Origin: a virus
IMG/VR virus record: IMGVR_UViG_3300020469_000079
Location: 1-46,815 of that record
Direction: 5' to 3' (one strand)
Length of the DNA stretch: 46,815 nucleotides
Below, one piece after another: positions 13,647-45,861 of this stretch. The notes beneath the pieces are model-generated. The model was not told the DNA's origin. It did not search any database and saw nothing but the letters and a program-made list of their open reading frames with translations. Both the position numbers and the translations under genes were made by a program. How positions within the stretch are numbered: the stretch's first letter is position 1; the number at the start of each line of letters is the position of its first letter.

Positions 13647-16600
13647 TTACACCGTAGCAATTGCTCTAAAGTCCTTTACGGTAGGAACAATAGCGTGATC
13701 ATTAGAAACTAATACAATTTTGACTTGGAACGAAGTAAATAGCGGTGGAGTTGGACTATCTTGACCAAAATCTCTTATATAACGAACTTCTGCATAATCG
13801 TCAATGTCATTAATTAATAGTGGAGTTTCTGGATCAATTCTTTCAAAAGTCAAATCTTCTATATTATCTTCTGATCTTTTAAATCGAGCATAAACTAATA
13901 CATTACTATCAGCATATGGTTTATTAATATTTAAATATGCATCTAATCTATCTGCTGGATTATTTAACGCAACTTCTTTTGTCATATAGACCGCAGTTGC
14001 GTTACCATGATCTGCAGCTAGTTCTGAATCTCCGCTATCTTGTATTAAACTATCTGCAGGAGTAGGACTAGTTGCACTAGCATCTTCTGGTCCAATAACA
14101 TTTTTAACTGCGATAAGAGAGATTCTGTCTAAGTCAATGATTGGTGATATTTTTCTATTATCTGTATCTAAACTTATTCTTACTTTTAAATTATCGTTAT
14201 GTGTAAGAGGAGCGTCAACTGCTGTTGAAATATAATGATTTTCATTTGGAACAATTACTTCGTAATCTCCACCATTAACCGATATTTCGAATTTTATTGA
14301 TGTTTCTGGATGCTCGATAAAATCTGTATTTAGTTGAACTTGAGAATACTCGAGAGTACCGTCTATTTCATCAGTGGTTATTACAGGATTATAATCATCA
14401 CCGTTGGCTTTTGTGGTACTAATTCCACGCGCTTCTAAAACAATTTCTCCACTCGATTGGAAGGTAGCTTCGCGAACACGCATCTTAAAGTCCTTCATTT
14501 GGTCAGGTGTCCAAGTCGAAGCATTTTGAGATTTAAACGATACACCTAAGAATGGATTCTTTGAAATATATTCTCCAGTATTAACATCATTTTTACCGAC
14601 TTCAGATAACCATTGACGATATTCTGATGAATTAGATTCTGTGACCATTGCGTATTCTAATCCATACTGAAGATAGATCGGTGAATCAAATGTAAAGGTT
14701 GTTACCTCACTTGCATCATTTGATGTATTGACGTCACCAGGTTGTTTTATTACATCACTTCCTGGAACTCTCCGCTGTGTTGGCATACCATTTTCCATTT
14801 CAACTAAATACAATTTCAAAGGAATGTTTTTAGTTGATGCGTGGCTAAAATATAAATCTACAGAATGAATAAAGAGCCCACCTGGATTTTCTCCAATAAT
14901 AAATGATTGAGCGAGTGGATCATACCACTGTGTGCGAGTAACTCCACTAGAATTTTGAATTCTTGAGTGTGTAACACGCTGAGATTGTCGAACAACTGTT
15001 CTTGTAGTAACAAGAGTTCTTTGTTTTGTTTGAACTTTACCTTGAGCAGTATATGTTGCATCTGCACTTGTACTAGCTGCAGGATCAGTGGCTGTTTTAC
15101 CATCTGATAAAATAACTTTTCTTTCTCCACAAGGGAATTGTAATTCTTTATTGTTTGGTACAACAAACCAACCATAGACATCACCTCTATTATCACTAAT
15201 AATATCTCCACCGGTACCAGTAATTTGTGTGTTTGATCGGTTGTGATAAACTTGTACTGAAGGATTACTCGACCATTGTTTATAGCCACTAGGTACTACT
15301 CCTTGTGATGTGATAGGTATACCAGTTGAATATTTAGTAATATCTTTTCCATCAAAGAATACTTTTAATTTAGTATTAGGTTTAAATAATTTTCCGCTAA
15401 AGTAAATTTTGCGAGCTCGCATAAATGGAACAAAACTTACGTCAATGACACGATCATCTTTTACTCGAGTAACAGCGTTTATTGAGGCAGTTGTTCTAAT
15501 ACCTGTGCGCTGTTGCCTTGATTGAGTTTCTGTTGTTGTTACTCTTCTAACCCAACCTCTACCAGGTCCACGGCCCCAAGGAATTCCGGCACGATTTCTT
15601 CGTTCCATTGTAGTTCTTGTTACAGGTCGACCAGTCCATGTTGTTTGCCATGAATTCCACCTTGTACCCATTTGATTAATTCGATCAACTTCGGCTCTTA
15701 AATCAGAAAGATTTCCACCAACTTCGTTTATAATATTCGGTGCTCTTCGAGTTTCCATCCATTCGTCAGATGAAGGAGAAAGCTTGACTGATCCTAACCA
15801 TGTTGCTACATCATATGGATTAACACTAATTGATACTGCGGCTTTTTGTTGATCAATCCAACTTGGTCCTGCAGTGTATGAAAGAGTAGCTATACCATCG
15901 TTAGTTGTTATATTAGTATTATCTAAATTATTGCCTGTAAATGTAAGTGGTACACTTCGAGTTTCGAAATACGGCCGAAGAATTGGATCATCAGGATCCA
16001 TCGAATTATTATAGTGTGGATCAAATACATTTCCTACCTCATGGCCTTGGAAACTGTCGACAATAATTCCATTTTTAAATCTTTCATATGGATTAGTGTT
16101 TGTTGTTTCAAAAATTTGTTTACCATTTGCTTCTCTTTCAAGTAAAGAAAGTGACGTATAATATTCTAAATTATTTACACGTGAATTAAGACTACCAATA
16201 TCTTTCATCGTATATCTACGATTATCAATAAAGCTTGTTTCAATCATTGTATGACAAAATGTATATGCGGGAATATGCAGTGTATAAAGATGCAGCGCGG
16301 TTGAAGGAACACTCGGTTCTTCAGGAACTATAGCTGGAACTCCTTGTATAAGTTTAAATTCGCTATCCTTTGTAACAACTAATTTATCAATGCGAGCAAG
16401 ATAATATGAAAGTTGTGAGTCAATTGTACTATTTGGATCTAAGTGAGTACCTGACTCGCTGTCACCAACTTTAGCTCTAAAATCAAGGCAATCAGAAAGA
16501 CGCATATCTTTATATGTTGAAATATCTGAATAGCCAATACTTAAATGATCAGGATAAGATGCAACTGAAAAATAACCTGTATCATCACTATGATCAAAAT

Positions 16601-18911
16601 AAGTATAAGTTATTTTAAGTCCACCATCATCAATTGCAGGAGATACTGCATTATCGGTCGCCTCATAACCAGCACCAGTATATGTAACTTTTCCTTTTTT
16701 ATAACATCCGTCTCTTTGACCATTATCAAGAACTAGATCGGATAAAGGTACATCATTACCGGCAAAATCTGTTGCTGATACTATTTCAATAATATCATAA
16801 TGATCAAGATCAAACTCATCACCAGTAGCAACATTACCTTCTATAGCCACTAATTCTTTATTTGTTTCAGTTTCTTTTGTCTTAGTTCTTAAATTTAATT
16901 TTGAGCGATATGACGCTATAACATCTACAGTAGCACCGTTAATAGCATCAGCTCGAAGAGTGACTTGACTATTATTTGTTCCTCCTATAGCTACATCTTC
17001 AACTGCGCGCTGGAAACCGCCATCCATTATAATATAACTATTTGCGCCTTCTATTTCAAATTTATCATCACCATTTGGTACAGTTAGTGTTACTCGTTTT
17101 TCATTTGAATTAGTAGTAGTGACAGATTGACCAGTAAATACCTTTCTTGCAGTAAATTGCATAGTGGTAGCATCTACATTTCGTATAAAATTAGCTGGAA
17201 GTTTGTATATAGATCTATTAAATTTTGGCTCATATATACCAATATCAACATTCGTGTCGATAGTAAATTTAAATCCGTTAGCTCCTGCAGGACCTATCTG
17301 GATATCTACAGCTCCGGATAAAGAAGTAACATTGCTCGCTAACTCAATGTCATAAACATACAGCTTAAAGCTTGATGTAGTTTTTTCTAATGCACGCACT
17401 CTACATGTAGCAAGAATATCGGCTGTTGCGTTTCCATTACCATCTGTAATATTGTATATAGTATCTACATCGAAACTTGGTGTTCCACCAGATATGCTAG
17501 TTCCTATAAAATAAGAACCAAGATTAGCAGTACTAAATGCATCTGTTGTGTTACTAAATGTACGTGCTTTCTCTCCTATTACTTCAATCCTTTCAGGTTC
17601 AGCAATGCGATAACCATCAACATATGAAATAGATGGTTCTATACCTACTACAAATCGTGACTCTCCGTATTTAATTCTATCAGGATCTTCTTTACTTGCT
17701 AAAGTTCCGGCAGAAACACTTGAAATATCTCCGCTTCCAATTTGAATAGCTAAATCTCCCATTTGTGTTGGAGTGTATACACCACGTCCACACTTAGAAT
17801 CATCATCATCATTATTATAGAATCCAGTTATATCGATAAGATATGGTTCTACTGTAAAATCTCCGGTTTCTTCTCGAGAACGTTCAGCCAATACATCTAT
17901 AATTCCGCTAAACTCTGGTCTAGCAGATTGTACAAGTGAGCCGTTTGTAAATTCTAAAAGGAATAGTGTATCTCCTATTGATGTACTATTTCCGTAAATA
18001 TTTGTGTTGCCTCCTATAAAGTCATTATCGTTATCTGTTTCATCTTTACTTAATATCGATAATTGAAGATCAATTGTATAACGATCAGCACCCGGTGCAG
18101 TTTCATTTGGATAACCAGCAGCATTATCAAGTAAAGATTTATCTGTTTGATAAGTTACTATTTTCTCAACAACTTTATAAACAACTTTAAAATTAAATGG
18201 ATAATCTTCTGCAGGAATTTTTGCATAAATGTTTTGCTCTTCGCTATAAACAAATTCTCCTTTAGTAAAATATACACCTTCTGATGATTGTGCGTGAATA
18301 GCTTTTCCTGTTTCAATCGCTGTCCCAATAATCTGACTTGCGTCAAAGAAATTTTCTCCAGGATTAGCTGGATTTTCTACAATATTTGTAGTTCGTATGG
18401 AATCAGCTGGAGAATTTTCAGCTTGAAATTTTTGTATATTTTCTCCAGTAGTATCGTCTTGAACAGAACTAAGATACTTAATATAAAATCTATAGTGATT
18501 TGTTGTTGAAAGAGCTTCATAATGTAAAATTTCAGCATCAACAAATCTTTCGGGACTCGAATCTGGATCATAATCTAATCGTAAACCCTCAAGTTGATTT
18601 AAGTTAGGAGCCAGAGTAACAGCTGTATTTGCCGGTATTGCTATATCAACATAATGTACAGTACGATCTAAAGTAGCTTCAGTAGCTAATTTTGGAACTG
18701 GACCTTCTTTAAAAACACCTGTACCGATTTTATCGATTTGGTTTTGTAGAATAGATTGTATTTGGTTAAGCTCACGAGCTTGTACACTAACACCTGGTTT
18801 AAAAAGAATTCGAAGAAAGTTTTTTTCTTCAGCAGTCTTATTATTAACATTTTGATCTCGTACACCGAAATCATCGTTGTACGGAGAAATTTGATAGGTT
18901 TTTATAGCCAT
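13647..18911 (-). CDS. DUF4815 virion protein at the gp9/gp10 position
   Basis: This 1754-aa protein has near its N-terminus (residues about 10-65) NFLRILFKPGVSVQARELNQ, then IQSILQNQIDKIG, the hallmark of the DUF4815 domain of large phage structural proteins. Around residue 1165 is FMRARKIYFSGKLFKPNTKL, and from about residue 1329 YDPLAQSFIIGENPGGLFIH, both recurrent in marine T4-like baseplate proteins. It follows gp8 with a TAATG stop-start overlap and occupies the place of T4 genes 9-10, whose products connect the fibres to the baseplate wedge. It is nearly three times the length of T4 gp10. I call it a baseplate or fibre-attachment protein; equating it with gp10 is inference from position. 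Confidence 0.7.
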   Translation of the reverse strand: MAIKTYQISPYNDDFGVRDQNVNNKTAEEKNFLRILFKPGVSVQARELNQIQSILQNQIDKIGTGVFKEGPVPKLATEATLDRTVHYVDIAIPANTAVTLAPNLNQLEGLRLDYDPDSSPERFVDAEILHYEALSTTNHYRFYIKYLSSVQDDTTGENIQKFQAENSPADSIRTTNIVENPANPGENFFDASQIIGTAIETGKAIHAQSSEGVYFTKGEFVYSEEQNIYAKIPAEDYPFNFKVVYKVVEKIVTYQTDKSLLDNAAGYPNETAPGADRYTIDLQLSILSKDETDNDNDFIGGNTNIYGNSTSIGDTLFLLEFTNGSLVQSARPEFSGIIDVLAERSREETGDFTVEPYLIDITGFYNNDDDDSKCGRGVYTPTQMGDLAIQIGSGDISSVSAGTLASKEDPDRIKYGESRFVVGIEPSISYVDGYRIAEPERIEVIGEKARTFSNTTDAFSTANLGSYFIGTSISGGTPSFDVDTIYNITDGNGNATADILATCRVRALEKTTSSFKLYVYDIELASNVTSLSGAVDIQIGPAGANGFKFTIDTNVDIGIYEPKFNRSIYKLPANFIRNVDATTMQFTARKVFTGQSVTTTNSNEKRVTLTVPNGDDKFEIEGANSYIIMDGGFQRAVEDVAIGGTNNSQVTLRADAINGATVDVIASYRSKLNLRTKTKETETNKELVAIEGNVATGDEFDLDHYDIIEIVSATDFAGNDVPLSDLVLDNGQRDGCYKKGKVTYTGAGYEATDNAVSPAIDDGGLKITYTYFDHSDDTGYFSVASYPDHLSIGYSDISTYKDMRLSDCLDFRAKVGDSESGTHLDPNSTIDSQLSYYLARIDKLVVTKDSEFKLIQGVPAIVPEEPSVPSTALHLYTLHIPAYTFCHTMIETSFIDNRRYTMKDIGSLNSRVNNLEYYTSLSLLEREANGKQIFETTNTNPYERFKNGIIVDSFQGHEVGNVFDPHYNNSMDPDDPILRPYFETRSVPLTFTGNNLDNTNITTNDGIATLSYTAGPSWIDQQKAAVSISVNPYDVATWLGSVKLSPSSDEWMETRRAPNIINEVGGNLSDLRAEVDRINQMGTRWNSWQTTWTGRPVTRTTMERRNRAGIPWGRGPGRGWVRRVTTTETQSRQQRTGIRTTASINAVTRVKDDRVIDVSFVPFMRARKIYFSGKLFKPNTKLKVFFDGKDITKYSTGIPITSQGVVPSGYKQWSSNPSVQVYHNRSNTQITGTGGDIISDNRGDVYGWFVVPNNKELQFPCGERKVILSDGKTATDPAASTSADATYTAQGKVQTKQRTLVTTRTVVRQSQRVTHSRIQNSSGVTRTQWYDPLAQSFIIGENPGGLFIHSVDLYFSHASTKNIPLKLYLVEMENGMPTQRRVPGSDVIKQPGDVNTSNDASEVTTFTFDSPIYLQYGLEYAMVTESNSSEYRQWLSEVGKNDVNTGEYISKNPFLGVSFKSQNASTWTPDQMKDFKMRVREATFQSSGEIVLEARGISTTKANGDDYNPVITTDEIDGTLEYSQVQLNTDFIEHPETSIKFEISVNGGDYEVIVPNENHYISTAVDAPLTHNDNLKVRISLDTDNRKISPIIDLDRISLIAVKNVIGPEDASATSPTPADSLIQDSGDSELAADHGNATAVYMTKEVALNNPADRLDAYLNINKPYADSNVLVYARFKRSEDNIEDLTFERIDPETPLLINDIDDYAEVRYIRDFGQDSPTPPLFTSFQVKIVLVSNDHAIVPTVKDFRAIATV

Positions 18912-24807: not shown

Positions 24808-27800
24808 TTAAGTGCTAATAGTAACTGTAGCTACAGTTTGTTGTGTATTATCTGGAGGACTACTATAAGGATCGACAACCGTATATATTTCTCCAGTTCT
24901 AAATAGCTGATCTAATTCTGGATTAGATGGAAGAGTTACATCGGGAGATTTACTTGTATTTATAGCACCTCTCCAAGCAATCGATATGGTGTTTCCACTA
25001 TTTGAAGTAGCAACTATTAATCCTTCGATTGTAAGATTATCTCCAGCATCATTAACAATATCTTGATATACTCTGTCTCCGTGATTTAATTGTGAACCAG
25101 CAGAGAACGAATTAATATTAAAATCAACTGGAGAAGATACGTCATAATCATTTGTTGGATCATTGTAGAAATTCACAATATCATCAAGAAGAATTCCTTC
25201 ATCTACACCAAATGGTGATGAATCACTTTCAAGATATATACCATCTCCACTTTCTGTTGAAAGTTGATTTCTCTTTCTAATAAGAGAACTAACATTTATA
25301 AAGACGTCTCTCTCAGAGAGTGCTCCTTTAATAGTTAAATCAAGATATGGACCAATACCACCTTCATCTTTAAATTTTAGATTTTGCTCGTAATCGTTTT
25401 TAGTAAAATCTTTATGTGATACTAATGAAGGTATAACATATTTGAATACCATAAGTACCGCTCTCATAAACATCTCAGAGTTGATATCTTCAGTACTTCT
25501 ATCTTGTAATAAATATGCTGCTTCTTGTTCTTCAGTTCCATAAACATCCATCACTTCATCTCTTCTTTTTACTTTAGTCGTAGTAATAGTTGCTAGTGTA
25601 TTTCTAGCTGGACTATCAGGACCAAAATACTCTATATCAATCGTTGAAGTAAGTGGATCAGCATATATAGAATCATATATACTAAACGATTTAATTACTC
25701 CAGTATATTCCATTACTCCAGCTGAGTTCACTCCTGCAGGAGAAATGCTTGATATAATGCCTCTTTTTTGTAAACTACGAGCAGGACTATTAGTATCATT
25801 TGGATCTGGTGTATCGGCACCAGATGAAACTATATCTCCTACTTCAAATGGAACTCCGGGATTTGATCCTACAGTGTCTCCTGATGACGTCAATAGTCTA
25901 AATTCAATATCACCAGACTCAGATCCATTTTCAAAATATGAATATGTGTATTTAGATGCTAAGTTATTTCCAGGAACAGATCTTGCTAATTGGGTCCATA
26001 ATCCAGCTTCAAATATAAATCGTCTTACTCTTATATCTCCTTGTAACCAACCAGGTTGGAAAATAGGCAGATGATATCCACCTGAATCAGATGGCGCAAC
26101 AAGAGATTCAAGCCATCTCATATCTTCTAATGGCTGTTTAGTTCTAAATGGAGATAAAAATTCCTCTTCAATACGAAGAAGATTTACATTTTGTCGAGTC
26201 TTAGTATCAAATAATATAGACTTAGGACCGTACCAATGATTGTCTCGTATAACAAGAAGAATAACGCTTGCAAAGAATTTTAGACCAGCTGGATGAACTA
26301 AATTTAAAAAGACATCTTCCCAATTATCTACTCTTAATCCACTCTGAATATTATACGAGAATTTTTGCCAAAAATTACTATCTTGAATTCTTCCTGTTGA
26401 AGATAGTCTTCCTTTTTTATTTGTGTATTCACCAACATATTCTAAACTCCATCTATGAAATGCAGGAGCATTATTTAATAAAGTATTTAATCGACCATCT
26501 CCCCAATATACAACTTCTTCACCAGTAATACTATTTCCGTAATCGACTGTTACAATTAATCCTGTATTTTCTGCTGGTATTATCGTAGGAGGACTACTAC
26601 TTTCATCGACTGTGTCGATTTTAAATTCGGGTTCTTCGTATCTTAAAAATGAATTAAATGAATGACCATCTAAATCTGTAAATTGAAAAGTATGATTCGC
26701 GCCTGGAATAGATCTGACCTTCGTGGCTCCTGAAGCAGTTCCTCTTATTCGATCAAATACAATTTTATAAAACTTTTTAACATTATTGGCTATAAATTCT
26801 TTAACTAATGTAGTTGATGCATTACTTATAGCATCAACGTAATACTGTGAATGACTAATATCACCATTATAGTAGTTACTTCCATTTACACCATTTCTAC
26901 CAAGAACAAAATTTGATTCAGGAGATATAGTTAAGTGCCGAAGAGTATTTCCTGATATTATTCTTTCATAATTATTATTATCATCAGTACTAATTTCAAT
27001 ATATCCATTATATCTATCTGCCCTTCCTCTTAATATAATTGTTTGAAATTCGTTTGTTGTAACTGTTTGATTATTTGCATATACTTCTGAAGAAGGAGCA
27101 GTAGACACAACAAAATCTGGGCTATACTCAGTACTATTTTTATAGTAGCCAACCGTAGTTTCATCATTAGTATAAACATACTCTATCATCGGTTTTTCAA
27201 TCGATGTTGTATGTATTATGTGCGGATATGAAAATACTGCGTTATACGATGGAGATCTATCAACAATTTTAAGTACAGCGCTATTACTTATTCTTCCTCC
27301 ATAAGAAGATACTTCTGAGTAACCTTCTTCCGGTTTAGCAAATGGAATTAAACGAATATATGTTTCACTTATCTTTTTATAAACATCGTATTTTACATTT
27401 GTAGCATTTTCAGTAGATGAAAATGTTGAAGTTGGTCCATTTAATATTTTATTGGCACTATTTGGTTCTAAAGAAATTGCGAATGATTCATCTTTATTAT
27501 CAATGGCGATATTTACTCCATAATTTAAACCAATTCTAAAATCATCATCGTTTGTTTGTACAAATGGTATTGATGGAGTTAACTCGTGTTTTACTTTCCA
27601 TGTGTTTTGAGCAGTGGTATATTGGCTTTCAATATAATAAAGTTTTGCTTGACTATTGTGTTGTACTTTGTTATATACATTTGAAAAATTATATTGATCT
27701 ACAAACTGCTTAGCATTATTTAATCCACCAGTTGCTATAAGAAAATCATCGCCAAAGAATTTATATGAATATAGTCTAGAACCATTATGTGTAATATAGC

Positions 27801-30800
27801 TATCAACAGTATTTGTTACAGATTCAAAAGTATTATAATAATTTTTCCAACCTGCATCCGTTATTTTTTCCCATATATTAATTCCATAATTAGTTACTTT
27901 TATAATAACTGAACCAGTTTCGTTTATTTCAAATTTTCCTCCATCCAGCAATGAATTAATGCCTGTTGTAACAGTTTCAGTATAATTACTTGATAAGTTT
28001 CTTTCTATTGCTTCAAATTCTATGTGTGTAAGTTCTTTATTATACAATGCAAGATGAGAAAATGCTATATCATTATGAAGAGTAAATTGAGATAATTGAG
28101 TAATACCATGAACAGGAACATTAACACTCGGCGGACTATCTTCGAAATCAATAAACTTAGATCTTTTAAATCCGTTTAAAGCATAACGTAATCCAGTAAT
28201 TATATTGTTTTCATTTGCAGTAAATTCAACTATTAAATTATTCCACGTTGATCTTTTTATTTGACTATTAAAATATTCATCACTAAATATTTCTAATGGA
28301 TTATCATCAAGAATAATATTAGTATCTATTTTATCTAATAATATAGTTTGATCAGGTTTTCCTGATTCTTGTGAAATAATTTGTAATTTTCTAACTAAGT
28401 TATCACGAACAATACGAAGAGTAATATTTCCGATACTTAATATATTGTCAACTGACTCAAATCTATCACGCGTTTTAAATCGAAGAGATATGGCAAATTT
28501 GTTTGAAACATCTAATCGAATTCCAGATCCAACACTTTTAGCGGGTGGTCTAAATATAACACCTGTATCTTTTAAAGTATTTGCAACTACTGTATCAGCT
28601 CTAAATCGAATTAAACCGCTTGTTGATGACCATTGTCCATCTACTAATTTTTTACTAATATCGAATTCTATATCGGGTTCAGGCGGATTTGAATAAGTAT
28701 TAGGTAAAGTTAGATAGTTTTCTGTCGACCATGAATTGTTTCTTCCTATAGTATATACTTGAATAATTTGAGCAATATCAACATTGTTAAAAGTATGTGT
28801 ACCAACTACAATTCGCGCATTGTTAATTTTTACATGTGCAAAATCTGCTGATCCTACGTGTGTGGCTGGAAGGTTTAAAGATACTGTTTGATGAAAATTA
28901 TATTGATTGTACTCATCTAATTTAAATATAACTAATCGAGATGCTCCATCATTAATTCTTCCATCTTGAGCTTTTACAGGTCGATCGAGTAAAACAAGAT
29001 GCGTTCCATGAACTGCATAATCTAAAATATCCCATAATCTTTCTTCACCATAAAGCGTAGTATCTCCAATTGTAATATCTTGCCAAGGAGTATATTCTCC
29101 ATTATGCTTATAATATATTGACAAATAACCTCGATTGTGCAAAGTAAATAAATGATCATTATTGTTTTTAACATACTCACAATGAGGTAATACTGGAAGA
29201 CTCGCATCTCCAGGTTTAGATGATTTAATCCATTTTGTTCCAATGTCGTATGGATTTACAGTTGTAATATCTGATTCCCAATCACTGTAATATGATATGC
29301 GACTTTCGTTTTTAATAGACCATCTACTGGTTGTATCTAAAGGATTTTTCTCAGCATGTATAAATGTTCCGATTGTAGCATTAATCGCAACTTGAAATAC
29401 ATCTACCTTTCCTCGATTTTCACCAGCTTGGTCATTTTCAGGAGATCCGACAACTACACGAGTTCCTGTTCCGTTTATACTTACACTTTCTCCTGCGTTT
29501 CCTGTATCTCCAAATCCTTGAATTGTTGCTCCAACCTTTTGCCAAGTTTGTAATGTAGATTGATAAGAAAAGGTTTGTACATGCCCAGAATTATTTCCAT
29601 TTTCATCATTATCTGGTGCTCCAATGACAATCACGTCTCCATTTGTATTTAAAGCAACACTTGATCCAAAGTCGTCATTTATATTTTCTCCTTCGAGTGT
29701 TTGACCAAATTGAACCCACTTATCTTGATTGTTAAGAGAATATATTTTAACTTCTCCTTTATATCCTTCCTGTGTTCTATCACCAAGGATTCCAACTGCA
29801 AGTGTTCTTCCATCATTACTTAAACTTAACGGAATTTTACCTCTATTAAGTCTAGCTTGCGGTATAAATTGTAAAGCTGTGCCGAGTTGAGTCCATGATG
29901 TTGTGCCTTCTTTATTAAAGTATGCTTTTACAGACATTAATATTTCATCAAATTCATTTATTTTATGAGTACCAACAATAAGAATTCTGCCATCATTGCT
30001 TAATCTAACAGTTGTTCCACTTAATGGATCATTATTGGGTTCTGTAATATTAGTGCCGATTTGACTCCATGCTGAATTGCTATATTCATAAACTACAACC
30101 TCATTTAATGCTCTATCTGTAAATCTATCACCAATATGTTTTCCTCCGTCATCTGCTCCAAATTGTGGACTTGTGCCAGTTTCAATAGTAAAAGAATTTG
30201 AAGTAATTGCTGGTCCACTTCTTACGTAAGTAATAGTTGATGTATCTGGTTTAGAACTAATTTCAAATAGTCCATCGTATTGATGTGATACGCCACTTAC
30301 ATATACGTGAGTAGAAGCGGCATCAAATTCTCCACCAACAGCAATAGTGGCTATTGTTCCATCAGAGCTAAATGAAAGAGTTGGATTTGCAGGTAAAAGT
30401 TGTGTATAGTCAGCAATTCGATCTCCATTAATATCGTCAAATGGAAAGTCAGTATCTCCAAGAGATGCACTAATATTTCCTGGAGCTGATTGAAAATTAT
30501 TAATTACCCAGCCAATTTGAAGACCAGATCCGGCAGTAGGCTCAAATTCAATTCGATAGGTTGTTGGGCCAGATTCATCGGTAAAACTATAAGTGGGCTT
30601 ACTGTGTACGGTCGAATTGGTTTTTGTATATGTATTTCCATTATAAACAAAACTAGTAATAGCTGCGCTAGCAACTTTAATGTTATGTGTTGTGGTAAAT
30701 CCATTAAAATCTTCTAAAAGTATACCATCTTCATCTTGAGTTCCGATATCATAATCAATATTTGGATCTGCACCAGAACCAATAGCTACGCGATCACCAG

Positions 30801-32829
30801 CACCATTTAAACTAACACTTGCACCCAACTTGCTATCTTCGATTGTTTCACTTCCAACAATAGATGATCCTTTTTGAACCCAAGTTCCTGGGCTTGAAGT
30901 TAACTCAAATATTTTTACCTCTCCTCGTGAATTTTCTGCATCAGTTGAATCTTTATCTTCAGGAGCACCAATTGCAAGAACAGATCCATCCGCGCTTAAA
31001 CTTAAATCACTTCCTAAAAGATCTTCTGAACTATCACCGTCAATATCTCCTCCTACTTGAGACCATGTAAGTGGTGAATTTTGTGATAATTCATATACTC
31101 TTACACTTCCAGAATTTTTACCTCCTCCGTCGTTTTTAGATGCTCCAATAGCAAGCTTAAATCCGTCTTCACTAATAGCATTTACTCCGCTAAAATCATT
31201 AGTACTTTCCCCATAAATCGAGCTGCCAATTTGTAAATTATTTGGACCATCAAATGAACTTGTATTTTCATCAAACTTATAAAACGATAAATCATCGGCT
31301 GTAAATCTGTCTAAAACCGGATCAGTTTCATGTACATAAACACTTTGCCCATTAAATTCAATAAGGGTTTTTTGCCATCTACCGTTATAATTATAGCCAA
31401 TTGACGATATAAATGAATTTAAATGATTCTTTCTCAGAGGTAGCTGATCATCGGGTGTGGCGAAAATTGTATTTCCATCAATAAAATTAGAAAACACGAG
31501 TGATTGAGGTGAGTCGTCACTCGCAGCAATAAGTGGTTCACCGATATCTACAAATGATCTACCTAATTTATTTGTATTTTTATTAAAGAATAATTCATGA
31601 GAATGAAGAGATTCATAATCTTTTGCCAGCGAAAAAAGTGGCTGAATAGTTCTATTTTCTTTAGTATATCTCGGCAGAGTGCGAATAACAAAAGAGTGTT
31701 CTTCTGTGTCAAGGCTAATTCTTGGATTTTCTCCTATATCACCAAAATCAAGATATGCAAATTTTCCATCAAGTTTTACTAACTCTTGTGATTCATTAAA
31801 TACTGCTCCTTGATAAAAATATCCACGAATAGTTTTATCAAATAAAACTGAATCCCAAGTTAGATTAATAGGATTTAAGTTTTTCTTTGTATTAAGATCA
31901 ATAACTAAACTACTAATAGTTGGTGCTGTATCGTATTTTACCGTTTCTTCAACGCTAACAATATTTCCTGCTCCTAATACTAAATTAGCATCGTCTATTA
32001 ATTGAAAACCAGTCTGATTAAATTCTCCTCTTAAATTTTCTTTTTCTACAGATGCTGTAAAAGTTTGTGTAAATTCGCTATTCTTTTTTTCAAAATTGCC
32101 AGCTGAAAGCTCAAACAATCTTTCTCTCGGATAAGATACTTTTATTACTTCGTCAAAAAACAAGCGGAAAAATGTAGTAATACTTTCTTCTGAACCTTTA
32201 AGAGAATAATATTGTATAATTCTTTTATACAAAGACACTCTATCCATGACTGCAGAATTAGGAATGTTTTTAGCAATTTCTCCTTGAATTCCGTCTAAAT
32301 ATTTATTTGATACCTCATCAATATCATGTTCATCAACAATTCGATTTGTTTCGTATGTAGGAAGACCTTCAGTATTAAGATACTCGTAATAATCTTTAAT
32401 TAAAGATATAAAATCTTCTGAACTTGCCCGCAATTGTTCTGGAATAAGTTCTTCAACACGAAGAGATTCAGTATTTGCTATATTAGTGTTAAAGGGATCA
32501 AAGGTATCTACAGTTGCAGCGATTGCAATGACAGGTTGCGATTGAGCAGTTGAGATATTTGTATATGATACTATAGTGTTATCAACATTATAAGTTGCAT
32601 ATTCTTGATACATAAAATCTCCATATGATGTATCACTTGGAGGATTTTCAACTCCGTGATTCATCTCATTTGAAGGCATATAGAATACTTCGTTATCTAA
32701 TGCTGTAAATGTATGCGAATGATATGGTCCACTGATTAGTGATTCATCGGTGTAAAGAGGATAATAATAGCCAGTGATCCCGCTCGTAGTACCACTATTG
32801 CTTTGACCTTTTAAATAATAAACTGACAT
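24808..32829 (-). CDS. gp7: Giant gp7-like baseplate wedge protein with propeller and lectin-like inserts
   Basis: This 2673-aa protein is much longer than T4 gp7 (1032 aa), but it sits exactly between gp6 and gp8 and carries conserved marine baseplate segments: SSEDFISLIKDYYEYLNTEG and YYSLKGSEESITTFFRLFF in residues 100-260, and RDNHWYGPKSILFDTKTRQN, FLSPFRTKQPLEDMRWLESL and PIFQPGWLQGDIRVRRFIFE in the C-terminal third. Residues about 520-1146 hold seven repeats of the type LSADGSVLAIGAPED followed by GxVxxFxL, an FG-GAP-like seven-bladed propeller, with an insert after repeat 3. Residues about 1440-1606 resemble a laminin-G or lectin domain (FAISLRFKTRDRF, WNNLIVEF, FSHLALYNKEL). T4 gp7 is the wedge initiator. 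The gp7 label rests on position and general character. It starts 6 nt after gp6 and depends on the gp25 promoter. Confidence 0.62.
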   Translation of the reverse strand: MSVYYLKGQSNSGTTSGITGYYYPLYTDESLISGPYHSHTFTALDNEVFYMPSNEMNHGVENPPSDTSYGDFMYQEYATYNVDNTIVSYTNISTAQSQPVIAIAATVDTFDPFNTNIANTESLRVEELIPEQLRASSEDFISLIKDYYEYLNTEGLPTYETNRIVDEHDIDEVSNKYLDGIQGEIAKNIPNSAVMDRVSLYKRIIQYYSLKGSEESITTFFRLFFDEVIKVSYPRERLFELSAGNFEKKNSEFTQTFTASVEKENLRGEFNQTGFQLIDDANLVLGAGNIVSVEETVKYDTAPTISSLVIDLNTKKNLNPINLTWDSVLFDKTIRGYFYQGAVFNESQELVKLDGKFAYLDFGDIGENPRISLDTEEHSFVIRTLPRYTKENRTIQPLFSLAKDYESLHSHELFFNKNTNKLGRSFVDIGEPLIAASDDSPQSLVFSNFIDGNTIFATPDDQLPLRKNHLNSFISSIGYNYNGRWQKTLIEFNGQSVYVHETDPVLDRFTADDLSFYKFDENTSSFDGPNNLQIGSSIYGESTNDFSGVNAISEDGFKLAIGASKNDGGGKNSGSVRVYELSQNSPLTWSQVGGDIDGDSSEDLLGSDLSLSADGSVLAIGAPEDKDSTDAENSRGEVKIFELTSSPGTWVQKGSSIVGSETIEDSKLGASVSLNGAGDRVAIGSGADPNIDYDIGTQDEDGILLEDFNGFTTTHNIKVASAAITSFVYNGNTYTKTNSTVHSKPTYSFTDESGPTTYRIEFEPTAGSGLQIGWVINNFQSAPGNISASLGDTDFPFDDINGDRIADYTQLLPANPTLSFSSDGTIATIAVGGEFDAASTHVYVSGVSHQYDGLFEISSKPDTSTITYVRSGPAITSNSFTIETGTSPQFGADDGGKHIGDRFTDRALNEVVVYEYSNSAWSQIGTNITEPNNDPLSGTTVRLSNDGRILIVGTHKINEFDEILMSVKAYFNKEGTTSWTQLGTALQFIPQARLNRGKIPLSLSNDGRTLAVGILGDRTQEGYKGEVKIYSLNNQDKWVQFGQTLEGENINDDFGSSVALNTNGDVIVIGAPDNDENGNNSGHVQTFSYQSTLQTWQKVGATIQGFGDTGNAGESVSINGTGTRVVVGSPENDQAGENRGKVDVFQVAINATIGTFIHAEKNPLDTTSRWSIKNESRISYYSDWESDITTVNPYDIGTKWIKSSKPGDASLPVLPHCEYVKNNNDHLFTLHNRGYLSIYYKHNGEYTPWQDITIGDTTLYGEERLWDILDYAVHGTHLVLLDRPVKAQDGRINDGASRLVIFKLDEYNQYNFHQTVSLNLPATHVGSADFAHVKINNARIVVGTHTFNNVDIAQIIQVYTIGRNNSWSTENYLTLPNTYSNPPEPDIEFDISKKLVDGQWSSTSGLIRFRADTVVANTLKDTGVIFRPPAKSVGSGIRLDVSNKFAISLRFKTRDRFESVDNILSIGNITLRIVRDNLVRKLQIISQESGKPDQTILLDKIDTNIILDDNPLEIFSDEYFNSQIKRSTWNNLIVEFTANENNIITGLRYALNGFKRSKFIDFEDSPPSVNVPVHGITQLSQFTLHNDIAFSHLALYNKELTHIEFEAIERNLSSNYTETVTTGINSLLDGGKFEINETGSVIIKVTNYGINIWEKITDAGWKNYYNTFESVTNTVDSYITHNGSRLYSYKFFGDDFLIATGGLNNAKQFVDQYNFSNVYNKVQHNSQAKLYYIESQYTTAQNTWKVKHELTPSIPFVQTNDDDFRIGLNYGVNIAIDNKDESFAISLEPNSANKILNGPTSTFSSTENATNVKYDVYKKISETYIRLIPFAKPEEGYSEVSSYGGRISNSAVLKIVDRSPSYNAVFSYPHIIHTTSIEKPMIEYVYTNDETTVGYYKNSTEYSPDFVVSTAPSSEVYANNQTVTTNEFQTIILRGRADRYNGYIEISTDDNNNYERIISGNTLRHLTISPESNFVLGRNGVNGSNYYNGDISHSQYYVDAISNASTTLVKEFIANNVKKFYKIVFDRIRGTASGATKVRSIPGANHTFQFTDLDGHSFNSFLRYEEPEFKIDTVDESSSPPTIIPAENTGLIVTVDYGNSITGEEVVYWGDGRLNTLLNNAPAFHRWSLEYVGEYTNKKGRLSSTGRIQDSNFWQKFSYNIQSGLRVDNWEDVFLNLVHPAGLKFFASVILLVIRDNHWYGPKSILFDTKTRQNVNLLRIEEEFLSPFRTKQPLEDMRWLESLVAPSDSGGYHLPIFQPGWLQGDIRVRRFIFEAGLWTQLARSVPGNNLASKYTYSYFENGSESGDIEFRLLTSSGDTVGSNPGVPFEVGDIVSSGADTPDPNDTNSPARSLQKRGIISSISPAGVNSAGVMEYTGVIKSFSIYDSIYADPLTSTIDIEYFGPDSPARNTLATITTTKVKRRDEVMDVYGTEEQEAAYLLQDRSTEDINSEMFMRAVLMVFKYVIPSLVSHKDFTKNDYEQNLKFKDEGGIGPYLDLTIKGALSERDVFINVSSLIRKRNQLSTESGDGIYLESDSSPFGVDEGILLDDIVNFYNDPTNDYDVSSPVDFNINSFSAGSQLNHGDRVYQDIVNDAGDNLTIEGLIVATSNSGNTISIAWRGAINTSKSPDVTLPSNPELDQLFRTGEIYTVVDPYSSPPDNTQQTVATVTIST

Positions 32830-40420: not shown

Positions 40421-40428
40421 TATAAATA
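40421..40428 (+). promoter_or_regulatory. Late promoter octamer for the 194-aa gene and gp54-like gene
   Basis: Perfect TATAAATA on the plus strand, 6 nt from the ATG at 40434. It is followed by GGGAT, the only unit in the window whose promoter-to-ATG gap holds a possible short Shine-Dalgarno sequence. Confidence 0.72.
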
Positions 40429-40433
40429 GGGAT

Positions 40434-41018
40434 ATGGCATCTCTTTTTGATACACTACAAGCTGCAGCGTTTAGATCTGATATAAAACGTGGAACTAAGC
40501 AGTCTCTGAAATGGTTCAGGGAAAAAGTTGCTGAGATAAAAAAGGTTAATCGTAAAGCTCTTTTAAGAGATGAAGCAACTAAAACAGTAGCAAAGCCGTT
40601 AATTGGTCGTATGTTTATGTACACTTACGATCCTAAAAACAAAAAGACTCTGCCCTTTTATGATAAATTTCCTCTTATTATTATGGTCGACAAAGCTCCT
40701 GGAGGATTTTACGGAATAAATTTACATTATCTTCCACCATTATTAAGAGCTAAATTCTTTGATAAGCTTCTTGATTACTCAAATAATGATAAATATAATA
40801 GTAGTACTCGTCTTAAAATGTCGTATGATCTTTTAAAAGGAGCATCAAAACTTTCTGCATTTAAACCATGCTATAAACACTATTTAACTAGACACGTCAA
40901 ATCACAAATATCCGAAATATCTGCCAGCGAATGGGAGATTGCAATCTTTTTACCATCTGAACAATTTGTTAAGAAAGCTAAAGATGTAGTTTGGAAAGAT
41001 TCAAGATCTAAAATCTAA
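40434..41018 (+). CDS. Conserved T4-like phage protein of unknown role
   Basis: This 194-aa protein has a basic N-terminal helix (FDTLQAAAFRSDIKRGTKQS, LKWFREKVAEIKKVNRKALL), then PLIGRMFMYTYDPKNKKTLP, FYDKFPLIIMVDKAPGGFYG, INLHYLPPLLRAKFFDKLL, FKPCYKHYLTRHVKSQISE and SEWEIAIFLPSEQF. I recall close relatives in marine T4-like phages in the same place beside gp4, but cannot assign a T4 gene number with confidence. The gene starts a short unit with the tube-fold gene, whose ATG overlaps this stop (TAATG), so a role in tail-tube or head completion is plausible. A nucleic-acid role is possible given the basic N-terminus. Confidence 0.55.
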   Translation: MASLFDTLQAAAFRSDIKRGTKQSLKWFREKVAEIKKVNRKALLRDEATKTVAKPLIGRMFMYTYDPKNKKTLPFYDKFPLIIMVDKAPGGFYGINLHYLPPLLRAKFFDKLLDYSNNDKYNSSTRLKMSYDLLKGASKLSAFKPCYKHYLTRHVKSQISEISASEWEIAIFLPSEQFVKKAKDVVWKDSRSKI

Positions 41019-41722
41019 TGGAAATCGATAAACTAAAATCAGCTGTAATGCGAAGAGATGGATTAGCTCGTGCTAATCGATTCGAAGCATTAATAATACC
41101 ACCAGCCCAGGCTTTTGCAGGTGATGTAGAAAAAGCACGAGATATGAATATCTTTTGTGAACAAATTTCTTTTCCCGGAAGACAAATACAAACATTCGAA
41201 ACAAATTATGTTCGACAACAAATAAAAGTTGCGCAATCTTTTATTAATGAAGATGTTTCAATAACATTTAATCTTACTAACGATATGTTTATAAAAGATA
41301 TATTCGACAGATGGACTAATTTAATTATCGATAGAGATACATTTAAGAAAAATTACGATAGTGTATATAAAAGAGATATGTATCTTTACCAAAATAATCA
41401 CGAGAATAAACATGTGTTTGAAGTAGAATTAAGAAATGCATTTCCAATATCAGTGCAGGCAATTGAAGCAAGCAACTCTGCTGAAGATATACAACAAGTA
41501 ATTGTAGAATTTACTTATGAGGACTTTAAGGAAAGATATATTAAGCAGTATCAAAGCGTTGTAAACCCAGTAGGCTTAAGACCTCGGCCGCCCAGCAAGG
41601 ATTTAGGTCGTGTTCGACAAGATGTGATAGCTCAAAATATAAAAAATATTAAAGCGAATTCCGCATTTGGAATAAGTGATTCGTTAAAGAGGCTTAGTTC
41701 CGAACGAAATCGTCTTAGTTGA
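41018..41722 (+). CDS. gp54: Tube-fold protein, gp54-like
   Basis: This 234-aa protein has the pattern of the tail-tube family: ARANRFEALIIPP near the N-terminus, NIFCEQISFPGRQIQTFETN, VSITFNLTNDMFIKDIFDRW, and a C-terminal FEVELRNAFPISVQAIEASN then IQQVIVEFTYEDFKERYI. T4 has three members: gp19 (tube), gp48 (cap) and gp54 (tube initiator). A separate gp48 is present, and this gene lies in the hub operon rather than by the sheath gene, so gp54 fits better than gp19. It is shorter than T4 gp54 (320 aa). Its ATG overlaps the previous stop (TAATG), so translation is coupled. Confidence 0.65.
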   Translation: MEIDKLKSAVMRRDGLARANRFEALIIPPAQAFAGDVEKARDMNIFCEQISFPGRQIQTFETNYVRQQIKVAQSFINEDVSITFNLTNDMFIKDIFDRWTNLIIDRDTFKKNYDSVYKRDMYLYQNNHENKHVFEVELRNAFPISVQAIEASNSAEDIQQVIVEFTYEDFKERYIKQYQSVVNPVGLRPRPPSKDLGRVRQDVIAQNIKNIKANSAFGISDSLKRLSSERNRLS

Positions 41723-41727
41723 TAACG

Positions 41728-41735
41728 TATAAATA
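41728..41735 (+). promoter_or_regulatory. Late promoter octamer for gp26 unit
   Basis: Perfect TATAAATA on the plus strand with a longer gap (43 nt) to the ATG at 41778. The predicted leader of about 37 nt is AT-rich and without a clear Shine-Dalgarno sequence. This is the only unit here with a leader of ordinary length. Confidence 0.68.
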
Positions 41736-41777: not shown

Positions 41778-42479
41778 ATGGCATTACCAAAACTAGATAT
41801 ACCGACTTACCCTATCGAGGTACCGTCGCTTAACAAACGAGTTGATTTTAGACCGTTCCTTGTAAAGGAAGAAAAGGTTCTCATGATCGCTCAAGAAACA
41901 GATGATCAAAGCAAGCTTTTACCAGTAATTAAAAACATCGTAAAAGCATGTTCATTTGAAAAACTCGATCCAAATGAATGTACTGCAACAGATCTCGAAT
42001 ATATTTTTCTCCAACTTCGAGCTAAAAGCGTAGGAGAAACCGTATCAGTACAAATTAAATGTGAAGAGTGTGACGAATACGCCACAGTTAAAATTAATCT
42101 TGAAGATATTAAAATTACTGAAGCTGCAGATCTGAGTAATACAATTGAAATTACTGATTCGATTGGAATCGTATTAAAAAGCTTGTCGATAAAAGATGCA
42201 GAAAAAATCGATGATACAGATGCTGAAAAGGCATTTAATCAAACGCTTATGTATTCTATCGAATCTATCTACGATGCAGATAGTGTATATCCTGCAAGTG
42301 AATCAACTGAAAAAGAATTGATTGCATTTATTGATTCATTATCTCATTCGCATCTCGAAAAAATTCAAGAGTATATTCAAAATATTCCAAAGTTGACTTA
42401 TACCGCCAAATTTACATGTGAGGCGTGTGGTCATAAAAACGAAATTGTACTAGAAGGAATCGAATCTTTTTTCTCATAA
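41778..42479 (+). CDS. gp26: Baseplate hub / tail chaperone gp26
   Basis: This 233-aa protein belongs to the T4 baseplate gp26 family (the family I know as T4_baseplate). The N-terminus PIEVPSLNKRVDFRPFLVKE then EEKVLMIAQE is the hallmark. Two CxxC pairs, C95-x-x-C98 and C214-x-x-C217, suggest a small zinc ribbon. It lies directly before the tape measure gene, where long-tailed phages carry tail-assembly chaperones. At its 3' end the codons TCT TTT TTC contain the slippery heptamer T TTT TTC just before the stop, followed in the -1 frame by a gp51-like extension. Thus it probably makes two products: the 233-aa form and a 293-aa fusion. Confidence 0.82.
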   Translation: MALPKLDIPTYPIEVPSLNKRVDFRPFLVKEEKVLMIAQETDDQSKLLPVIKNIVKACSFEKLDPNECTATDLEYIFLQLRAKSVGETVSVQIKCEECDEYATVKINLEDIKITEAADLSNTIEITDSIGIVLKSLSIKDAEKIDDTDAEKAFNQTLMYSIESIYDADSVYPASESTEKELIAFIDSLSHSHLEKIQEYIQNIPKLTYTAKFTCEACGHKNEIVLEGIESFFS

Positions 42480-42508
42480 GCCTTTCTCATGATTCTTTAT
42501 CGAATCAT
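42452..42508 (+). promoter_or_regulatory. Putative programmed -1 frameshift signal (gp26/gp51)
   Basis: Three elements are seen in order. AGAAGGA at 42452-42458 resembles a Shine-Dalgarno sequence, placed 8 nt before the heptamer as in dnaX-type signals. The heptamer T TTT TTC at 42467-42473 is in the correct frame (gp26 codons TCT TTT TTC) so that both tRNAs re-pair on TTT TTT after slipping. The gp26 stop follows 3 nt later. A 7-bp hairpin (ATGATTC at 42489-42495 with GAATCAT at 42502-42508, 6-nt loop) lies 15 nt downstream. The spacer is longer than the usual 5-9 nt, so the hairpin is the weakest element. Confidence 0.7.
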
Positions 42509-42658
42509 TATCAAACAAACTTTGCGATGGTGCAACATCATCAATATAGTTTAACAGAACTTGACAATATGATCCCGTGGGAAAGGCAGATATACGTATC
42601 TCTTCTTCAGGAGCATATAAAAGAAGAAAATGAACGAATTAGGCGACAAAACAAATAA
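42473..42658 (+). CDS. gp51: gp51-like extension read by -1 frameshift from gp26
   Basis: After a -1 slip the frame runs CTC ATA AGC ... for 61 codons to TAA at 42656-42658, giving a 293-aa gp26-gp51 fusion. The segment reads SLSHDSLSNHYQTNFAMVQH then HQYSLTELDNMIPWERQIYV and a charged helix rich in E, R and K. I recall this pattern (LSHSH..., VQHHxYSLxE, MIPFERD) from proteins called gp51 (hub assembly catalyst) in marine T4-like phages. No ATG, GTG or TTG occurs in this frame before 42527, and that ATG lies inside the conserved part with no Shine-Dalgarno sequence, so independent initiation would lose the conserved N-terminal half. The tape measure ATG follows 8 nt after the stop. Confidence 0.72.
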   Translation, partial: LISLSHDSLSNHYQTNFAMVQHHQYSLTELDNMIPWERQIYVSLLQEHIKEENERIRRQNK

Positions 42659-42666: not shown

Positions 42667-45600
42667 ATGTCCGACCTGAAAAAGTTAACAGAAGCAATTA
42701 AGCAAGATAAAGAAAGCAATAATGATAAGGATATCAGAGCTACTTTAGATATATCTGAATTGTTAGGTAAGAATGATAATTTAGATACTACGAATTATCT
42801 CTTGGCTTTAAAATATGTTAAAGTTAGAAGGAATATTCTTAATGCAATTATTAAGAAGACACAGGGAGGAAAGTTAAGAGGTCTTAAACTTGGCAAAGAG
42901 ATACAAATATCTGATATTCTTGGTGAACCACCCAAGACCGGTCTTCTTACAGGTTTAAAGTGGTTAAGAGTTAAAAATCAAATTCTGAAAAAGGTTAGCG
43001 CAGCTACTGCGGATGCAAACTTTGAGTTTGGTAAAGAGATAGATGTTAATGATATACTTGGCTCTTCGCCTGAGCAAGATTTTATAACGAAGACACGATT
43101 CTTTTTAATTCGTCAAAAGCTATTATCAAAGATTGCTAAAGCAGCAAAAGCTTTTGATGGTGAGTCAATGCTCGGTGGAATTTTAGGAATAGAAAGCAAA
43201 TCTACTGATATTGAAGGAATTGACTCGAGTATATCCTCAGCTGAAGGCATGAACGCAGCTGCTGGTCTATCTACTGATGAATCATTAGAAGAATTACGAG
43301 GCATTCGTACTGGTATTGATAATATCTATGACCACCTTCTAGATAGCAAAGGTGATAAATTAGATGAAAGAGAAAATGCAAGAGAACAGATCGCTCGCAA
43401 CGAAAGACGTCACAATGAATTACTGAATGCTGCCAAAGGTGGCAGTGGCTTTTTAGGAGGAGGCGGAATGGGAGGATCTGGCGGCGGCGGTGAAGATGGA
43501 TTAGGCTATGTAGAAGGCAGAATTGGCGAGAAGCTTGCCAGAGGAACATATGATAAAGTAAAGAAAAGTAAAGTAGGAGGGAAAATTGGTAGTCTCTTAC
43601 GACTCGGAAAAGCCGGACTTGTTACACTCGGTGGTGGAGCATTAGCTTTAGGATCAACAGCCCTAGCAAAAAGTAAAGGCTTATTTAGTAGAAAGCCTCC
43701 TGTGGCAAAACCTCTTACACCAATGCTAAGTAAGGGGGTTTCAGAGACAGCAGCTAAAGAAGTTACAAAAACAGTTGGTAAAGAATCTACAGAAAAGGTA
43801 GCCCAAGAAACAACTGAGAAAGTAGCTAAACAAGCCACTGAATCAGTTGGTAAACAGGTTGCAAAAACTACAGCAAAAGCAACTACTAAAGGTTTGATCA
43901 AAAAGATACCGCTTATAGGTGCCGTTGCAGGATTAGGGTTTGGATTATCAAGAGCACTCAAAGGAGATTTTCTTGGAGCTGGTATGGAAGTTTCTTCTGG
44001 TCTTGCATCAATAATACCTGGAGCAGGAACTGCCGCATCTTTAGGAATAGATGCTACTCTATTAGCCAGAGATGTGAAAAAAATTAAAGAAGGTGAAGGT
44101 GAAGGTGTGGATGATTCTATTATTCCAACCGAAACAATAACCGGTAAGAAAACCGATGGAGAGGCAAATTATAAAAAGGCATTAGAGAATAAAGAAAAGG
44201 CTGTAAATGCTTTACAATCTTTTGAAGATGAGACTGTCGAAGGAAAAGATTACGAAATGATTGACCAACCACAGGGATATCGCGGTCTCTATTACAGCGT
44301 CGGTCTGGATGATGAGCCGATGCAGATGCGGAAATATAAAGATCCAGCTCAACAAAAGAAATTTATAGAATTAGAAAATGCTGAAATCGCAGCAGCTAAT
44401 AAAGTGGATCAAGGCGAGGTAGACATGCTAATAGACGCTGGCATGTTGAATAAAAGATATGGCGGAAAGGACGGAAGAAGAAGGATTGGATTTAGTCAAT
44501 ATCTAAAACGAGCTCGGGCGCAATATGTTAAAGCTAATAACATTGACATTTATGCGGGTACAGAAAGAGGTTCTAATGAATACTACCGAGCACAGAGCGA
44601 TGATATCTCGTACAATGGCAGAAATGCCATACGAAAAAATGTATTAGGCGAAGATAATACCTTTAAACAAGAAGCTAAGAGCGAAGATACTACCATTAAG
44701 CCAACTGAGAGTATGACTGGTGAAAAGACTGCTCCTAAACCTGAAGTTGTTAAAGTGGGTTATGGTATGATAGATGGCGAATTCATAGGAGTATTAGATG
44801 GAGTACCATACCAATACGGGGAGAAAATGGGTCAAAAAACCGAAAATGGTAAAGTTGTCACATTTCAATATTGTTTTGTTAAAAAGGGTGTAAACAATCT
44901 CGATGATGACCCAGAAAATCATCAGGTTGATAAAGAATCATACGCAAAATTCGAAGAAAAGATGTTGGGTATTAGTTGGACAAGCGGAGCCAAATTATCA
45001 GAAGAAGAAATTAGAAATTTAAAGTCAGCACCTGCAATTAAACAACCAACTGTTGAGGATACTAAACCATCTATTACAGCTGCAGCTGCTGCTACAGTTC
45101 CTACTTTAAAGCCTGTTGAAGAAGAGCCATTTACTGAAGCTGAGAAAAATTTAATTGCGAATAACCCATTCCTACCACCGCCTCCTACTGAGGTTGAACA
45201 AAAACCAATTAATGAATTTAAAGGCATACTTGGAGTAGGAAATAACCCTAAACCTGAGACAATAAAAGCATTCGAAGCTCGTATAAGACAAGGTATTTCA
45301 AGTATAGATGCTGACGAAACAGCACAAATACAAGCGGGTTCGCAACAATACAAGATGGATTCAGCAACACGAATGGTTGAGAGTGGTCGAGGTATTGGTA
45401 TACCTTCTCAACGATTAAGCGGCATGTCAGGCCAAGTTGGACCAAGTCGAAGAACATCAGGACTAAGTAGATTCGCAAGTAAAGCACTTGGTGCAGTTAT
45501 TGGTCCAGATATTCAAGGGAAAATTAGGAAAGTATTATCTTCTCGAGATCCTATTGGAGAAGGTAAAAAGTTATTTAGCCGAACTAAAAATAGATATGAA

Positions 45601-45861
45601 GGATTTAAAGAACTGACACCTTTACAACAAGGTGTTAGAATTTTAAATGCACCATCTCCAACTGTTGGTGCAGATATGTCTGCGAGGCAAAATCAAAATA
45701 AAGATTTATTAAGTCAATTAACAAGTGCAGGATCATCAATTAATGCACCCACAGTTGTTAATAATAATCAAAGTTCTAATAGTGTGACAAATGCAATCAC
45801 CTCTTTGCCGCACCTTGATAAAACTCGAAACTTATTTGGCAAAACCAATTTAGGTTGGTAA
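42667..45861 (+). CDS. Probable tape measure / hub protein (gp29 position)
   Basis: This 1064-aa protein follows the gp26/gp51 unit, the standard place for a tape measure. Three N-terminal repeats (residues about 28-65, 79-114 and 126-161) have the form (D/Q)(I/V)xxxLG, a short loop, then a basic helix with VRRNIL, VKNQIL or IRQKLL. A glycine-rich linker lies at about 258-285, a hydrophobic stretch at about 314-334 (GLVTLGGGALALGSTAL), a Lys/Thr/Glu helix with short repeats (TEKVAQETTEKVAKQAT) at about 358-408, then IPLIGAVAGLGFGLSRAL and SIIPGAGTAASLGIDATL at 414-469, seen in other phage tail-length proteins. T4 gp29 is 590 aa. The long coiled coils of many tape measures are not evident, so the label is moderate. 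Confidence 0.6.
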   Translation: MSDLKKLTEAIKQDKESNNDKDIRATLDISELLGKNDNLDTTNYLLALKYVKVRRNILNAIIKKTQGGKLRGLKLGKEIQISDILGEPPKTGLLTGLKWLRVKNQILKKVSAATADANFEFGKEIDVNDILGSSPEQDFITKTRFFLIRQKLLSKIAKAAKAFDGESMLGGILGIESKSTDIEGIDSSISSAEGMNAAAGLSTDESLEELRGIRTGIDNIYDHLLDSKGDKLDERENAREQIARNERRHNELLNAAKGGSGFLGGGGMGGSGGGGEDGLGYVEGRIGEKLARGTYDKVKKSKVGGKIGSLLRLGKAGLVTLGGGALALGSTALAKSKGLFSRKPPVAKPLTPMLSKGVSETAAKEVTKTVGKESTEKVAQETTEKVAKQATESVGKQVAKTTAKATTKGLIKKIPLIGAVAGLGFGLSRALKGDFLGAGMEVSSGLASIIPGAGTAASLGIDATLLARDVKKIKEGEGEGVDDSIIPTETITGKKTDGEANYKKALENKEKAVNALQSFEDETVEGKDYEMIDQPQGYRGLYYSVGLDDEPMQMRKYKDPAQQKKFIELENAEIAAANKVDQGEVDMLIDAGMLNKRYGGKDGRRRIGFSQYLKRARAQYVKANNIDIYAGTERGSNEYYRAQSDDISYNGRNAIRKNVLGEDNTFKQEAKSEDTTIKPTESMTGEKTAPKPEVVKVGYGMIDGEFIGVLDGVPYQYGEKMGQKTENGKVVTFQYCFVKKGVNNLDDDPENHQVDKESYAKFEEKMLGISWTSGAKLSEEEIRNLKSAPAIKQPTVEDTKPSITAAAAATVPTLKPVEEEPFTEAEKNLIANNPFLPPPPTEVEQKPINEFKGILGVGNNPKPETIKAFEARIRQGISSIDADETAQIQAGSQQYKMDSATRMVESGRGIGIPSQRLSGMSGQVGPSRRTSGLSRFASKALGAVIGPDIQGKIRKVLSSRDPIGEGKKLFSRTKNRYEGFKELTPLQQGVRILNAPSPTVGADMSARQNQNKDLLSQLTSAGSSINAPTVVNNNQSSNSVTNAITSLPHLDKTRNLFGKTNLGW

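Follow-up and report, generated by a model that had tools for sequence, protein, structure and literature searches.

A conserved −1 frameshift signal very probably joins gp26 to a gp51-like domain in a T4-like phage

The tail-assembly chaperones (TACs) of T4-like phages have been identified as gp26 and gp51 (Vladimirov, Gautam & Davidson, 2022, Virology 566:9-15, as cited in PMC10885494 and PMC12846349). According to PMC10885494, the same work found that some T4-like phages have one short and one fused TAC gene, and PMC12846349 credits it with the poly-T −1 signals known in the TAC-N genes of T4-like phages. According to PMC3004832, T4 gp51 is needed for assembly and is not part of the particle, and it is counted with gp26 among the hub assembly chaperones; both this absence and this listing are as expected for TACs. 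Earlier, cyanophage and marine vibriophage gp51 were described as being without the first ~200 residues, with cyanophage gp51 having only about 20% of the normal length (Sullivan et al., 2010; PMC3037559). The locus described here was first noticed in a sequence-only reading, which took a −1 frameshift between gp26 and gp51 to be possibly undescribed. As far as the 2022 work is related in PMC10885494 and PMC12846349, this is mostly not so, since the chaperones and the poly-T signal were both published in it.

The window analysed here is a record of a marine T4-like virus, 46,815 nucleotides long, a fragment with a single gp26-family locus. The gp26 gene (41778–42479, + strand, 233 aa), the candidate short TAC (TAC-N), is preceded immediately by a tail tube gp19-like gene (41018–41722). 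Its product scores 188.1 bits against the Pfam family T4_baseplate (PF12322; curated cut-off 24.5) and belongs to PHROG 150. The 3′ end of the gene reads …GAA TCT TTT TTC TCA TAA, with the stop codon at 42477–42479, and thereby holds the slippery heptamer T TTT TTC in the gp26 frame (42467–42473, + strand). From the heptamer onwards the −1 frame encodes 63 residues (42467–42658, + strand) before it is closed by the TAA at 42656–42658, with 59 codons lying beyond the gp26 stop. This extension, the putative TAC-C domain, is homologous to the C-terminus of T4 gp51. It matches PHROG 634 (‘baseplate hub assembly catalyst’, gp51) with an E-value of 4.5e-28 and also the C-terminal end of PHROG 150 (gp26; 1.7e-9), which implies that the PHROG 150 profile includes fused members. 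The in-frame heptamer and the open −1 frame with its gp51-like segment, both pointed out by the sequence-only reading, are therefore present. A 1064-aa ORF (42667–45861, + strand) begins 8 nt past the TAC-C stop; it matched no tape-measure family, and on its position and length it is a probable tape measure protein.

The AlphaFold model of gp26 has a mean pLDDT of 89, and the C domain is predicted to be helical throughout (pLDDT 78). Fold searches of the PDB with both predicted structures gave no significant match; for the gp26 model, Foldseek placed the HK97 tail chaperone 2ob9 at rank 15, which is not significant (probability 0.20, E-value 0.87, TM-scores 0.21/0.36). A sequence search of the PDB with the gp26 profile found no relative either.

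We propose that the locus very probably yields a short and a long tail-assembly chaperone from one gene by −1 frameshifting. Most ribosomes would terminate at 42477–42479 to give gp26 (TAC-N). A minority would pause as AGAAGGA, upstream of the heptamer, pairs with 16S rRNA, and these would slip from T TTT TTC to TTT TTT C and so pass the gp26 stop. A further 61 codons in the −1 frame would then lead to the fusion gp26-ESFFLISLSHD...RRQNK (TAC-NC), and the TAC-C domain would be made solely as part of it. By analogy with lambda G/GT, the N domain would coat the tape measure protein, which is probably encoded by the ORF that follows, and tail-tube subunits would be recruited by the C domain, both domains leaving before the tail is mature. 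The direct basis of this proposal is the sequence, the homology, the conservation at the nucleotide level and the absence of an alternative start; the occurrence of slippage, its rate and the chaperone function are what we infer from it.

A T4-late-promoter-like motif, TATAAATA, lies 42 nt upstream of the gp26 ATG (41728–41735, + strand). By itself it is neither rarer nor commoner than chance in the window. As a separate observation, seven of the 11 copies of this T4 late promoter core are followed, after only 4–6 nt, by the ATG of a long ORF in the same orientation (window positions 40421 and, on the minus strand, 36476, 35314, 24802, 20517, 4407 and 1212). Across all fetched loci, 118 of 302 copies are found 4–9 nt before an ATG, 56 of them at exactly 5 nt, these counts coming from related loci and so not being independent. 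Given the geometry of T4 late promoters, a transcript from an ATG-proximal copy would begin at the start codon, and these motifs may possibly produce leaderless late mRNAs. The tail region of the window also contains very large ORFs on the minus strand, at 24808–32829 (2673 aa), 13647–18911 (1754 aa) and 8341–13434 (1697 aa).

Relatives of gp26 were drawn from IMG/VR and from annotated phages, and removal of genes at least 80% identical left 97 gp26 genes. At this level (<80% identity), an in-frame T TTT TT(C/T/A) occurs 0–8 codons upstream of the stop in 96 of the 97, the sole exception being Salmonella phage SFP10. The last base of the heptamer is C in 63 genes, T in 31 and A in two, and the heptamer lies one codon before the gp26 stop in 78/96 and directly at the stop in 13/96. 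The homologous −1 frame is open for 57–79 codons in every one of the 96 heptamer carriers. This comparison of gp26 3′ ends is the one by which the sequence-only reading had suggested its proposal be checked, and it bears the proposal out. The residue that precedes the two phenylalanines varies (Ser, Asn, Asp or Ala), yet its codon ends in T every time, and the first Phe is encoded by TTT in all carriers. Under the codon usage of each gene, the chance of this pattern arising among synonymous codons is ~10^-46, or 10^-33 for representatives at <60% identity, figures that are products of probabilities, ignore relatedness and serve as a guide, not as a test.

In the rest of the gp26 genes, by comparison, an in-frame TTTTTT is found at 14 of 21838 codon positions, and Phe-Phe pairs are slippery in six of 71 cases. 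Within the window, the gp26 heptamer exceeds chance because none of the other ORFs that reach 100 aa has an in-frame TTTTTT among its last 100 codons, nor does gp26 have a second one there. Differences among the relatives over the −1 segment number 5693, 1942 and 13565 at codon positions 1, 2 and 3, respectively, a distribution which indicates that the segment evolves as coding sequence in the −1 frame. A chance heptamer in chance overlap with a decayed gp51 would find some favour in the AT-richness of the window and in nothing further; the conservation and the coding-type substitutions of the −1 segment refute it, and its probability is negligible.

We may also ask whether the C domain is instead a separately translated small protein, gp51, made by reinitiation or from an internal ATG, with the poly-T run being incidental. 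Separate gp51 genes are annotated in public records for many relatives, and in D480, V05 and RL38J1 the annotated genes begin at an ATG overlapping the gp26 stop, such a −1-frame ATG being found in some distant relatives. However, no ATG, GTG or TTG in the window covers the first 20 residues of the −1 segment, which would be dropped by separate translation: the first −1-frame ATG, at 42527, corresponds to residue 21 and lies past the LSHDSLSNHYQTNF part. The conserved part of the segment does lack a start codon, as had been noted from the sequence. In 7/96 relatives the earliest possible ATG, GTG or TTG is at residue 34 at least, beyond the conserved core, and in 12/96 a −1-frame stop directly abuts the 5′ side of the heptamer. 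The gp51 genes annotated in Melnitz (L001) and S-CAM22 (L002) begin within the domain, and in S-MbCM6 gp51 is without annotation. Moreover, the heptamer and its phase are kept at the nucleotide level, and T4 has the C domain solely as a fusion. Separate translation of gp51 is thus very improbable compared with a frameshift.

Two other arrangements were observed among the loci. Vibrio schizotequatrovirus-type phages and Rhizobium phage RL38J1 (L008, L013, L173 and L174) have the heptamer together with a −1-frame ATG overlapping the gp26 stop, and both a fused and a free C domain are possible there. Ackermannviridae and the Vibrio phages K469 and 1.244.A encode a TAC-C homologue in the −1 frame and have no canonical heptamer, which speaks against the proposal. 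At these heptamer-less loci (L005, L168, L169, L172 and L178) the sequence is ATT TTC ATT TAA, or CTT TTT before the stop; an ATG overlaps the gp26 stop in some of them, and in SFP10 and HMGUkp5 an ATT stands in its place.

The ribosomal frameshift may be helped by its surroundings. The sequence-only reading had picked out an SD-like AGAAGGA 8 nt upstream of the heptamer (42452–42458, + strand), which is a likely frameshift stimulator. Pairing of the 16S tail with the 23 nt on the 5′ side of the heptamer averages −6.1 kcal/mol, against −4.9 kcal/mol in synonymous recodings (z = −8.3), and, where scored (78 sites), the spacing is 7–9 nt in 69: the element is conserved beyond protein coding. The same reading had drawn attention to a 7-bp hairpin (42489–42508, + strand), the stem of which, ATGATTC/GAATCAT (42489–42495/42502–42508), starts 15 nt downstream of the heptamer. 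This hairpin is indeed present in our sequence, but not conserved as a structure: no covariation was found among 18 distinct close relatives, and the stem is broken in several of them. It was rejected as a conserved stimulator on these grounds, and its role is doubtful. On average, the folding excess downstream of the heptamer is mild (mean z of about −1 to −1.5, compared with −0.5 in the gp26 interior), and an Rfam search of the frameshift site gave no match.

The spacing of the SD-like element also bears on whether the ribosome changes frame or RNA polymerase slips on the T run. Polymerase slippage favours longer runs and requires neither a codon phase nor an SD-like element. A run of 6–8 T is conserved, as such slippage would have it, yet the run is exactly 6 in 65/96 genes, never exceeds 8 and never reaches to the 5′ side of the heptamer. 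The codon phase always fits tandem −1 slippage, and the SD-like element stays at a fixed 7–9 nt beyond synonymous expectation. With this run length, phase and spacing, transcriptional slippage is disfavoured, and we grant it very little likelihood.

The preferred reading, a ribosomal −1 frameshift, can be set against the two separate T4 genes. By hhalign, T4 gp26 (208 aa, encoded on the opposite strand) aligns to the whole gp26 profile (99.1%, E-value 2e-18) and has no match to the C domain. T4 gp51 (249 aa) matches the N domain (91.1%), and its residues 200–244 match the −1 segment (probability 75.8%, E-value 2.3e-5). The related gp51 of QL01 is covered end to end by PHROG 150. T4 gp26 is therefore N and T4 gp51 is N+C in one ORF, so that a fused N+C protein does exist in nature, and it follows that T4 uses two genes for the short and long forms, whereas the present lineage would use one gene and a frameshift. 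No separate single-frame N+C gene, the T4-type solution, was found in this 46.8-kb fragment. The original suggestion that gp51 is the frameshift domain thus holds for the marine and cyanophage type, but not for T4, in whose gp51 the C domain is joined to a second copy of N.

T4, with its separate N+C gene, has lost the slippery site. The gp26 genes of T4 (L180, 3303–3929) and QL01 (L006, 730–1353) end in …GAG TTC TTT…, in which the two phenylalanines are kept and the sequence is not slippery, and their −1 frame runs into gene 25. The terminal TTC TTT is likely to be the fossil of a lost slippery site. It is conceivable, and we put it forward as a tentative and rather doubtful scenario, that nearly all marine T4-like phages use the gp26/gp51 frameshift, that it is probably ancestral, and that the two-gene arrangement of T4 was derived by duplication and fusion, leaving this fossil in gp26. 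T4 would then be a clean case of a gene duplication replacing a frameshift. In the accessible literature we found no description of the exact distribution of the frameshift or of the T4 fossil site.

The proposed frameshift would assign a function and an expression mechanism to a core gene pair of hundreds of marine T4-like phage genomes, in which gp51 is mis-annotated, mis-started or missing. The truncated gp51 genes reported in 2010 are at the same loci, and PMC3037559 does not mention a frameshift; the frameshift would explain their truncated look, since the residues missing from cyanophage gp51 would be supplied by gp26.

As for the known systems, the T4-like TACs of Vladimirov et al. (2022), as they are related in PMC10885494 and PMC12846349, have the same two domains and protein families as found here, and our locus is a well-supported new example of known phage frameshifting, not a new mechanism. 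T4 itself differs in having a separate gene for each of the two forms, one on either strand, where our locus would have one gene and a frameshift. The TACs of Vandenendeviridae and Andersonviridae, which are other phage families and are set beside gp26 by description, have an invariant GTTTTT; as proposed for gp26, their TAC-N gene has a poly-T −1 frameshift at its 3′ end, and annotations often give the C domain as a gene of its own or a hypothetical one, as is also the case here (PMC12846349). Finally, the layout resembles that of lambda G/GT, with a short gene, a −1 overlap and a long fusion directly before the tape measure gene or, here, its likely equivalent. The lambda heptamer is G GGA AAG, compared with T TTT TTC in gp26, and hhalign detects no sequence similarity of lambda G and T to this pair (probabilities 0.1 and 0.03, respectively). 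The large-scale conservation and the comparison with T4 support the equivalence first suggested from the sequence, in which gp26 would correspond to lambda G as the TAC-N, and the −1 product to lambda GT as the TAC-NC.
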